DNA of 64,000 bases from Nitrospirota bacterium (GTDB taxonomy: Bacteria > Nitrospirota > Leptospirillia > Leptospirillales > Leptospirillaceae): positions 1 through 64,000 of the forward strand of contig JAKBXW010000001.1 of assembly GCA_021840555.1 (NCBI GenBank), written 5' to 3'. Positions 7,588 to 62,213 of the stretch are shown one piece after another; the first letter of the stretch is position 1, and each line of letters begins with the position of its first letter. The notes beneath the pieces were generated by a model. The model ran no database searches, was not told where the DNA came from, and saw only the letters and a list, made by a program, of their open reading frames with translations. The position numbers and the translations under genes are program-made.

Positions 7588-8285
7588 GAGGCCTCCCTGA
7601 TTTCCTTGAGAAGGTTCTGGAGATAGGCGCGCTTTTCGAGCCGTTCCGACAATGTGGCGAGGGCTTTCGAAAGCTTCTCCCGACCGTCTTCGGAACCGTC
7701 CACCAGCGCGTCGATTTCCTCAAATGAGTGGTAGATCTCCTGTTCGATGGGGTCGATCACCGCCCGAAGCCTTTGCTCGGCGACAGCGGGGCCCTGGCTC
7801 GCAAGAAGAGCGTCTCTTTCTTCCTTCAGATCCATGATTTCCATGAGATCGCTGGAAGAGAGGACGGCCTTTCGGTTTGGGCGGGCCGGTTCGCCCTTGA
7901 CGTGCCCGATGAAGTAATGCGCTCTGAGAAAGGGGTCCCGAAGGGTCCGGAAGGCGAGGTTGACCAGGGATGCGTTCCCCAGAGCGATCGTCTGCTCCTT
8001 TTCCGAGTCTTCCACATGGTGGTCCGGATGAAAGGTGCGGCTTTTCTCGTGATAGGCGGCGACAAGAAGTCTCGGGTCGAGGGTCAGACGCGCGGGAAGT
8101 CCCAGAATGCTGTAATAATCCCTTTCAGGCCCGAAGGGCTGGACACGGACGCAGGAGGGACACACATCCTCGTCACCGATCTTTTTCTCGCAATTCCAGC
8201 AGACGGAATGGCTGTGTTCCCGGTTGTCCGGATGCAGAAGGTTCGCCTGGGATGGTTTTTTTTCCGCAGTTTTCGTGTCAGACAT
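7584..8285 (-). CDS. hscB: HscB J-domain co-chaperone with N-terminal CxxC...CxxC zinc-finger-like motif
   Basis: [15 protein letters not shown]...FHPDHH (HPD) and N-terminal [17 protein letters not shown]. Confidence 0.93.
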
Positions 8286-58955: not shown

Positions 58956-59816
58956 ATGGGAAATGGTGTCGGAAAAGGGCTTCCATGGGTGCTTGCCGTC
59001 AGCTTGACCCTCTTGTCCGGGTGCCAATCCGGCTCGTTCTTTCACTCTTTGATGGGGACCCGGAGGACAGCCTCTTCCGCTGACACACGCTTCCAAAATA
59101 ACTATCCCGAACTCAAGGCGCTTCTCAGGGACAACCATTTCCGTAAGGCTCTGTCATGGGTTCGGGACTGGGAGAAGACAGGGAGTCTTTCCGATGACAA
59201 CCGACGCCTGCTTCGGAAGGACGAAAAAACGATCCGTATTGTCGGTGCGGCCTACTACATGGGAATCGCAAGAGAGAGGCGCAAATCAGGCCGTCTCAAA
59301 GGGGCTCTTTCGGCGCTTGAAATCGCCCGGACTATGACCCCGGAGGATCCGGTCCTCCGCTCTGAGATCGAAAAAACAAAAGCCCGGGTGGTCGTTTCAG
59401 GCCAGGACGGCCAGGATTGGGGAGAACTCCTGTCGCAGCTTCTGGTCTTGAAGTCAAAAAATCCCAGGGATGGGGCTCTCGATCCCATGATCGGCTGGGC
59501 CTACGGAAAATTGTCTGAAAGCGAATATATGGCGGGCCGTTACCCGTTGGCTCTCCTTCATGCCCGAAAAGCCCTGTCTTACAGGAAGGACGATGCGGTT
59601 GCCCAGAGAGTCCAGGACCGTGTGAACGAAATGGTCAGGTCGCTTGTGAGTCGCGCGGAGGCGGAGTATCGGGATCACCGCTATGCGGCGTCGGCCCAGG
59701 ATCTTGGCAATGCCCTGACTGTCGATCCTGAAAGCAGGCGTGCACGCAAGGACTGGCAGATTCTCTCTGAGACGCCCGGGGCTCTCCGGAATGCAGAAAC
59801 CAGGAATTTTAAATGA
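58956..59816 (+). CDS. TPR lipoprotein
   Basis: Lipobox LTLLSGCQSG; TPR-like repeats. Confidence 0.75.
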   Translation: MGNGVGKGLPWVLAVSLTLLSGCQSGSFFHSLMGTRRTASSADTRFQNNYPELKALLRDNHFRKALSWVRDWEKTGSLSDDNRRLLRKDEKTIRIVGAAYYMGIARERRKSGRLKGALSALEIARTMTPEDPVLRSEIEKTKARVVVSGQDGQDWGELLSQLLVLKSKNPRDGALDPMIGWAYGKLSESEYMAGRYPLALLHARKALSYRKDDAVAQRVQDRVNEMVRSLVSRAEAEYRDHRYAASAQDLGNALTVDPESRRARKDWQILSETPGALRNAETRNFK

Positions 59817-59831
59817 ATTGAAGGAGTGGTG

Positions 59832-60701
59832 ATGCCGTTTGATTTTGTCAAGAGTCATGGATTGGGGAACGATTACATCGTCATGGTAAAAGGAGCGCAA
59901 ACACCTCCCTTGACCGAAGACAATATCCGTCTGATTTGCGACAGGAACTACGGAGTGGGATCGGACGGGATTCTTTTGCTTGAAAAAGACATCCCTCCTT
60001 TCGGTCTCCGAATCTTCAATCCCGACGGATCAGAGGCCGAAAAAAGTGGAAACGGCCTGCGAATTTTTTCGAAATTTCTTTACGAGTACGGCTACGCAAA
60101 AGACAAGGAGTTTCTGATAGACACTGCCGGAGGTCGAGTCCGTTCCACGGTTCGGACCGATCAATCCGATCGGGTTGTCGCCGTTCTGGTGGAGATGGGA
60201 ACTTACACCTTTGATCCGGCGGCTGTCGGCATCAAGGACCGGAGCACCCCCATGATCGAGGAGGAATTGAAGATCAACGGGGACGTTACCGTCAAAGGAT
60301 CGGCACTGTCGGTCGGGAACCCGCATTTTGTTTTTTTTGTGGAGTCCATCGACGACCCCTTCATCCGGGAGTATGGGACGTTGATCGAGCACCATCCACT
60401 TTTTCCGAAACGGATCAATACCCAAATGGTGCGTGTTGTGGGTTCGAACGAAATTGAAATCAGGATCTGGGAACGGGGGGCAGGGTATACCCAGGCGTCG
60501 GGGAGCAGCTCCTGTGCGGCGGCCTCTTGCGCCGTCTTCCTGGGAAAGGTCAAGAGTCCTGTGACGGTCCGGATGCCGGGAGGCATTTTGCGTATCGAGG
60601 TGGGAGAGGACAGGGAGCTTCGGATGGAAGGGCCTGTCGAAGAAGTAATGACAGGACTTTTTTCGAGGGATTTTCTGGACAGACTGACAAGGAAGACCTA
60701 A
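59832..60701 (+). CDS. dapF: DapF-superfamily protein (diaminopimelate epimerase homologue with Cys-to-Ser at both catalytic positions)
   Basis: KSHGLGNDYIVM, RIFNPDGSEAEKSGNGLRIF, WERGAGYTQASGSSSCAAA. Confidence 0.88.
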   Translation: MPFDFVKSHGLGNDYIVMVKGAQTPPLTEDNIRLICDRNYGVGSDGILLLEKDIPPFGLRIFNPDGSEAEKSGNGLRIFSKFLYEYGYAKDKEFLIDTAGGRVRSTVRTDQSDRVVAVLVEMGTYTFDPAAVGIKDRSTPMIEEELKINGDVTVKGSALSVGNPHFVFFVESIDDPFIREYGTLIEHHPLFPKRINTQMVRVVGSNEIEIRIWERGAGYTQASGSSSCAAASCAVFLGKVKSPVTVRMPGGILRIEVGEDRELRMEGPVEEVMTGLFSRDFLDRLTRKT

Positions 60702-60902: not shown

Positions 60903-62213
60903 TTAATCTGCGATCGGTTTCTTTTGTAATGGCTGGGCATCCTCGTTCTTGAAAACGCTTCTGACCAGATTCATCGGCCCTTTGGTTGTCTCCGGGTAGG
61001 AAATCGATCCAAAGATAATCAGTGGCGACTGGTCCCTGTTCATCCCCAGGAGAAGGTCCCGGATCCGTTCGATGATGGTGTCGGAATGACGTGGATCCAT
61101 CGCAGGAAGTATCAGAAGATATTCCCGCTGTGTCATATGGGCGATTTCATCGTAGAATCTGAGGTTGGCTCTGACTTTGATCATGAGCGACCTGTGATTT
61201 GGAATCTCGGTTCTGATTCCGATCAGACCAAATCCGGTTCCCGTTATGCGGTGTTCTTCTATCAGGGCTTCGATGAGAAGCATCGCTTCCCGTCGATCGA
61301 GGAATCCTGATTCTGGCTCTCTTGCGGTTGGGAGCAAATCTCCCAGGTTTTTGCGGATTTCGAAGAGGTTCCTTGAGAGCACTTGCACCTTGGGTTGAAA
61401 GGAGCTGAGGCCGGGAAGCTCCCTTTTTCTTGATTCGGGCCGAAAGAGCCGGACTTTTCCAAAAAATGTGCGATTGTAGAGAAGGGGAAAATCCGCCCAG
61501 TATCCTTCCCCCGGGTTCTTTGCAAAGAGGATCCGCCGGAATGGGAGAATTTCCTTGGATTCTTCTTTGGAAAGGGATTCTGCAATCAGTTTCCTTCCTT
61601 CATCCGGATTGTATCTGACACGCCAGAACTCGGCGGATGGTGACCACGAGGAGGTGGTTGAAAGATAGACCTGGGCCATGGCCGCATTCGGATCGGTGCC
61701 CAGTTCATCCTTGAAAAAATGGTCGATCAGGAGCTCGTCGCTGACACTCCGAATGATTATTCTCGCAGGGGTGCGAATTCGCCGACCCAGAAGAATCAAA
61801 GCCTCCTTTCCGCTTTCATCGAGCTCCTCAGAGATCTTTTCGAGAAAGAACGGATCCTCCGCGCTCTCCTTCTTGGTCGGGACTTTGAGAATGAACCTTT
61901 TTTTCCCTGATTCCGGATCGGGAAGGTCAATGAGGGAAGGGTGGGGCGAAAGGGAGGATGCCCAGTCCCAAAACCGTCCCTTTGTTTCACCGGAGAGAGA
62001 CTGGGCGATCTGATTGGCGTGGTCAGCAAGAGAAAATCGGGGGAAGCCGGCTCTTACGAGATTCCATCTTTGTAAAAAACGGGAATTGGCAAGGATGATG
62101 TGCGTTCTGGACAGGAAAAGGGAAAAGGATAGATCCGATTCGGAGAGAAGGGAGTCAATTTCAAGGAGGGCCTGTTCATTTTTGAATAGCGAGGGTCTGA
62201 ACAAGAGATTCAT
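60903..62213 (-). CDS. Hypothetical protein with degenerate GGDEF-like C-terminal domain
   Basis: LRFYDEIAHMTQREYLLILPAMDPRHSDTIIERIRDLL...IIFGSISYP mirrors the GGDEF fold without the GG[DE]EF loop. Confidence 0.65.
   Translation of the reverse strand: MNLLFRPSLFKNEQALLEIDSLLSESDLSFSLFLSRTHIILANSRFLQRWNLVRAGFPRFSLADHANQIAQSLSGETKGRFWDWASSLSPHPSLIDLPDPESGKKRFILKVPTKKESAEDPFFLEKISEELDESGKEALILLGRRIRTPARIIIRSVSDELLIDHFFKDELGTDPNAAMAQVYLSTTSSWSPSAEFWRVRYNPDEGRKLIAESLSKEESKEILPFRRILFAKNPGEGYWADFPLLYNRTFFGKVRLFRPESRKRELPGLSSFQPKVQVLSRNLFEIRKNLGDLLPTAREPESGFLDRREAMLLIEALIEEHRITGTGFGLIGIRTEIPNHRSLMIKVRANLRFYDEIAHMTQREYLLILPAMDPRHSDTIIERIRDLLLGMNRDQSPLIIFGSISYPETTKGPMNLVRSVFKNEDAQPLQKKPIAD

Follow-up and report, generated by a model that had tools for sequence, protein, structure and literature searches.

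The chemistry of PLP-independent amino-acid racemases is accounted for by a thiol/thiolate pair, and how so weak a base takes so weakly acidic a proton is a long-standing question. The pKa of serine lies far above that of cysteine, and, to our knowledge, all characterised diaminopimelate epimerases (DapFs) need Cys at both catalytic positions. Among engineered enzymes, the C233S and C101S mutants of PddB had activity below 0.1%, with similar results cited there for M. tuberculosis DapF (PMC8225329), and the activity of HisR Cys-to-Ser mutants was greatly reduced (PMC11602996). As for natural enzymes, a 4-hydroxyproline epimerase of DapF-like fold has a Ser/Cys pair and is active, a proline-racemase-family protein with a Ser/Thr pair acts as a dehydratase (both PMC4113996), and some Asp/Glu racemases have one Thr (PMC8142540). 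Cys/Cys DapF is inactivated by a disulfide on oxidation (PMC5296763).

Here, we examined a dapF-type gene in a Nitrospirota draft genome, within a window (the whole stretch of DNA analysed) of 64,000 nucleotides. The encoded protein has serine at both catalytic positions, a variant of which we found no earlier description in the openly accessible literature. That literature yielded no natural Ser variants of DapF, though one may have been described elsewhere.

A DapF homologue with serine at both catalytic positions

The gene occupies positions 59832–60701 on the forward strand and encodes a 289-aa Ser/Ser variant of DapF, as judged from the ORF call, TIGR00652, PDB sequence matches, alignment and a structure model. 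It starts with the ATG at 59832, an alternative in-frame GTG at 59826 being possible. The protein scored 228.7 bits against TIGR00652, passing the curated equivalog cut-off of 114.65; solved DapFs were its top PDB sequence matches, with end-to-end alignment and E-values down to 8.8e-52, and DAP_epimerase was the sole match in a Pfam scan. An earlier note on this DNA had described a DapF homologue with both catalytic cysteines replaced by serine and the remaining signature intact, and this description was borne out. The motifs GLGND, RIFNPDGSE, EKSGNG, GNPH, ERGAG and TQASGSSSCAA were all found, and S72 and S223 aligned with C73 and C217 of the reference, E. coli DapF (NC_000913 b3809, where both cysteines were confirmed), with ungapped flanking motifs. 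The codons are AGT for S72 (60045–60047, forward strand) and TCG for S223 (60498–60500, forward strand), not TGC or TGT, and the serines are repeated across independent assemblies. Because both catalytic cysteines of DapF (C73, C217) are serine here, we place the protein in DapF as a variant, on homology and context, rather than calling it a proven two-Cys epimerase. Misalignment, with another cysteine standing in for the lost ones, was rejected: C228 (in SSSCAA) corresponds to the non-catalytic Cys that ordinary DapFs carry in GTGAC, and C36 lies at a distance in sequence.

The structure prediction proposed in the earlier note gave the two-domain DapF fold (pLDDT 93.5, pTM 0.89). In the model, S72 and S223 are placed just ahead of helices 73–85 and 224–236, respectively, that is, at the helix N-termini where the cysteines are sited. 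The best PDB structural match was the closed-form Anabaena DapF (9mro, TM 0.87/0.90), followed by other DapFs; ranks 1–26 were all DapF or O-ureidoserine racemase, and PhzF and proline racemases ranked below the DapFs (E 5.5e-16 or worse, TMq 0.62–0.73). The protein is therefore closer to DapF, by both sequence and fold, than to the proline racemase, PhzF or dehydratase relatives. The DAP contacts N11, N64, N157, N190, E208 and R209 (E. coli numbering), as given for Anabaena DapF (PMC12039745), are all identical in the window protein, and H159 is likewise kept. At position 44 the protein has Gly, a residue that Anabaena and plant DapF share. Adjoining S72, the residue at 71 (codon AAA, 60042–60044, forward strand) is a Lys that is invariant in the Ser/Ser clade, in place of Met or Gln in Cys/Cys and Phe in Ser/Cys DapFs. 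The other residues near the sites that are specific to this clade are L76, I78, S225 and S226, the last two being Thr/Gly elsewhere.

Distribution and origin of the Ser/Ser form

The alignment of orthologues, another check that the note had proposed, showed that Ser/Ser is conserved well beyond the source genome. It occurs in 13 of 13 genomes of the window's own family (f1, the Leptospirillum family) where the gene was found (14 copies), and a DNA search pattern encoding EK[S]GNGLRI matched in 137 of 396 Nitrospirota genomes, in f1 and three further families: f7, f10 (possibly Nitrospiraceae, by our guess) and f18. Serine was read in every matched string, with AGY codons in f1 and f7 and TCN codons in f10 and f18; the second site (217) was read only in fetched loci, where it is Ser in all full-length Ser/Ser copies. 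Because the residues are conserved in all 13 f1 genomes and in three further families, they do not reflect chance or sequencing error. In a tree built with both sites removed, 41 Ser/Ser proteins formed one clade (bootstrap/SH-aLRT 100/100) with a long stem branch (1.46). Pairwise dN/dS inside the clade was about 0.05–0.19; judged from these sequence comparisons, the clade is under purifying selection. Plasmid and phage collections gave only matches under 60% identity.

Whole-genome searches gave a single PF01678 gene above the cut-off in each of 27 Ser/Ser genomes, nine of which are single-contig (G015, G069, G084, G090, G144, G146, G148, G252 and G254). In the source genome, the second canonical dapF that the note had suggested looking for was not found, and contig C87 bears an intact lysine operon with no dapF in it. 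One exception to the one-DapF rule is G012, a metagenome bin with two Ser/Ser copies, each on its own contig. DapF was absent or broken in four drafts (G186, G280, G344 and G326) and partial in two (G268 and G382), which we take as assembly gaps. The other exceptions are G196 (L135/L184), with a tandem Ser/Ser dapF pair and a small fragment resembling part of the adjacent VOC-like gene between the copies, and three f7 genomes (G026, G035 and G043; L080–L082, L084–L086), whose lysine operon has a Cys/Cys DapF and which also have a Ser/Ser DapF beside an rpe-like gene. Since these f7 genomes hold both forms, the Ser/Ser copy there could have another role.

Serine at position 73 was also found outside the clade. 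The f10 genera without Ser/Ser (seven genera, 10 genomes) have an operonic DapF of another lineage with Ser73/Cys217 (EFSGNGAR ... ETLACGTG). A single origin of all Ser73 forms was rejected by the AU test (p = 1.6e-6), indicating that Cys73 changed to Ser at least twice. The operonic Ser73/Cys217 loci of the ten f10 genomes are L151, L154–L160 and L162–L171. The reverse arrangement, Cys73 with Ser217 (LASGTG, TCT codon), was seen in a Chloroflexota draft (G398; L049/L134/L172), where Ser217 is a one-base change and may thus be an error; a scan of 399 Chloroflexota genomes for TCN codons with the GTG motif found no further Cys/Ser form.

Lysine pathway and gene neighbourhood

The product of DapL is LL-DAP and the substrate of LysA is meso-DAP, so an epimerase is required unless a DAP dehydrogenase is used. 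DapL, the LL-DAP aminotransferase sought at the note's suggestion, was found at 581–627 bits in all 16 searched Ser/Ser genomes without an operonic dapF, LysA was present in every Ser/Ser genome searched, and MurE carries the DNPR motif typical of enzymes that add DAP in every Ser/Ser genome where it was readable. The MurE entries for G026 and G035 are set aside, since they came from a wrong reading frame (MurF). The source genome has dapL, lysA, dapA and dapB on contig C87 and murE on contig C32, so that the genes making LL-DAP and those using meso-DAP are both present. No DAP dehydrogenase over the cut-off (180.6) was found in the genomes searched, and neither the Leptospirillum family nor most others had a full-length match. 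Full-length DAP-dehydrogenase-like proteins scoring 113–132 bits occur in three f10 genomes that also have Ser/Ser (G029, G069 and G144; L050, L175 and L176).

On contig C87 the gene order is argH-lysA-dapA-dapB-dapL, with no dapF; the lysA and dapA matches are 393 bases apart. The order argH-lysA-dapA-dapB(-dapL) without dapF was found in ten Ser/Ser genomes including this one, the gap being 20–539 bases in the other nine; Nitrospirota with a Ser/Cys or Cys/Cys form have a dapF between lysA and dapA, with gaps of about 860–2030 bases. The presence of Ser/Ser and the absence of an operonic dapF coincide, except in f7, which has a Ser/Ser and an operonic dapF. This coincidence is what displacement by a functional equivalent predicts. 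Within the Leptospirillum family, a lysA-dapA gap of 393–539 bases is left where relatives have dapF (L177, about 7782–8174; L074–L078).

In the window, a TPR-like gene (58956–59816, forward strand; TPR_2 below the gathering score) ends 15 bases upstream of dapF and is probably co-transcribed with it. It keeps this order in all same-family loci read and has no known link to lysine synthesis. The family order is dksA, a short-chain dehydrogenase gene, often an alcohol dehydrogenase gene, the TPR-like gene and then dapF; in f10 the Ser/Ser dapF lies between VOC-like and uvrC-like genes, and in f7 near rpe (several neighbour names were read from sequence, with no profile scan). The lack of a constant partner gene is more in keeping with a housekeeping enzyme than with a new pathway. 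On the other side of dapF, a 436-aa protein without a Pfam match (60903–62213, reverse strand) adjoins it in all same-family loci read.

Function and comparison with known enzymes

We consider, with a probability of roughly 0.78, that the gene encodes a working DAP epimerase (LL-DAP to meso-DAP) that uses Ser in place of both Cys and that displaced the operonic Cys/Cys dapF. From the observed Ser/Ser pair, its conservation and single origin, the sole-DapF status, the pathway context and the intact DAP residues, we infer DAP epimerisation, and that by the standard route in which two bases transfer the proton. S72 and S223, each at the N-terminal end of one of two facing helices, would share the work: one would take a proton from the alpha-carbon and the other would return one, in a closed, water-free pocket. 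As a conjecture, the invariant Lys71 and the clade-specific S225/S226 may help tune the serines. Purifying selection, the convergent Ser/Cys operonic DapF, the lack of a DAP dehydrogenase over the cut-off and the active Ser/Cys 4-hydroxyproline epimerase also speak for this reading; the near-inactive engineered mutants, the higher pKa of serine, the Ser/Thr dehydratase, the f7 genomes with both forms and the gene's place outside the lysine operon speak against it. We also lean, less firmly, towards the general proposition that a Ser/Ser acid-base pair performs DAP epimerisation without catalytic Cys or cofactor and has been fixed across several families, with Cys73 changed to Ser at least twice. 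As one guess, serine may have been fixed because it spares the enzyme the inactivating disulfide that Cys/Cys DapF forms when oxidised.

Because the engineered Cys-to-Ser mutants are nearly dead, a working Ser/Ser enzyme must either compensate or be slow. One form of our reading, which we think rather unlikely though worth keeping in mind, is a residual slow DapF with activity near that of such mutants, tolerated by slow growth or a high amount of enzyme without special adaptation. Leptospirillum does grow slowly, and the mutants keep trace activity (PMC8225329); however, the clade-specific K71, I78, S225 and S226, the strong conservation and the independent Ser73 lineage suggest adaptation over decay.

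The earlier note had expected epimerisation to be lost or greatly reduced and the protein to be repurposed. Its chemical concern is sound, given the near-inactivity of the mutants, but we do not favour its conclusion. An inactive epimerase serving as a dehydratase, binding or regulatory protein, with meso-DAP made by an unrecognised enzyme, would agree with the loss of both catalytic Cys, the long stem branch and the canonical copy retained in f7. It is nevertheless improbable, because no other DapF was found where the operonic gene is missing (the protein is the sole DapF in 27 genomes, the operonic dapF being displaced), all DAP contacts are conserved, LysA, MurE and DapL are kept, a second Ser73 lineage exists and no common neighbourhood points to another pathway. 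A non-homologous DAP epimerase could possibly do the step.

A bypass in which DAP dehydrogenase makes meso-DAP directly from tetrahydrodipicolinate, leaving DapF dispensable, is very unlikely. The sub-cut-off relatives in G029, G069 and G144 would suit it, but nothing comparable exists in G000, G002, G012, G015, G017, G084, G146, G148, G252, G090, G254 and others, which contradicts the bypass there, and DapL is kept in all genomes searched. A sequencing, assembly or alignment artefact is hardly credible even though the source assembly is a draft, 81.6% complete and in 157 contigs, since many independent assemblies show the same residues, with differing codons, and nine of them are single-contig genomes that each have one DapF.

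Either serine does this difficult chemistry, then, or an unknown enzyme replaces DapF; a conserved Ser/Ser DapF, with no other epimerase candidate in whole lineages, offers a natural experiment on the thiol requirement. If our preferred reading is true, the redox-sensitive thiol pair has been removed from an essential enzyme, and DapF in these bacteria would be affected neither by thiol reagents nor by the disulfide switch of Cys/Cys DapF (PMC5296763). Annotation by a Cys-requiring motif would wrongly score them as DapF-negative.

Compared with known systems, the window protein shares with DapF (EC 5.1.1.7; TIGR00652, PF01678; PDB 9mro, 1gqz, 4ijz) its family score, fold, DAP residues and DapL/LysA/MurE context, and differs from ordinary DapF in having Ser for both catalytic Cys, in lying outside the lysine operon and in the clade-specific K71, I78 and S225/S226. 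The 4-hydroxyproline 2-epimerase with Ser93/Cys resembles it in fold and in having a natural Ser at one catalytic Cys, while being an active two-base epimerase, but belongs to another family, acts on another substrate and has one Ser only (PMC4113996). The trans-3-hydroxyproline dehydratase (Ser/Thr; PMC4113996) likewise has neither catalytic Cys; unlike the window protein, it is a one-base dehydratase of a cyclic substrate, in which the DAP contacts are not expected. The C73S and C217S forms of H. influenzae DapF (PDB 2q9h, 2q9j) carry the same substitutions, but these are artificial and were introduced one at a time to trap the enzyme, and catalysis is hindered. Finally, the Ser/Cys DapF of seven f10 genera also has Ser at 73, but it belongs to another lineage, retains Cys217 and lies within the lysA-dapF-dapA-dapB operon.
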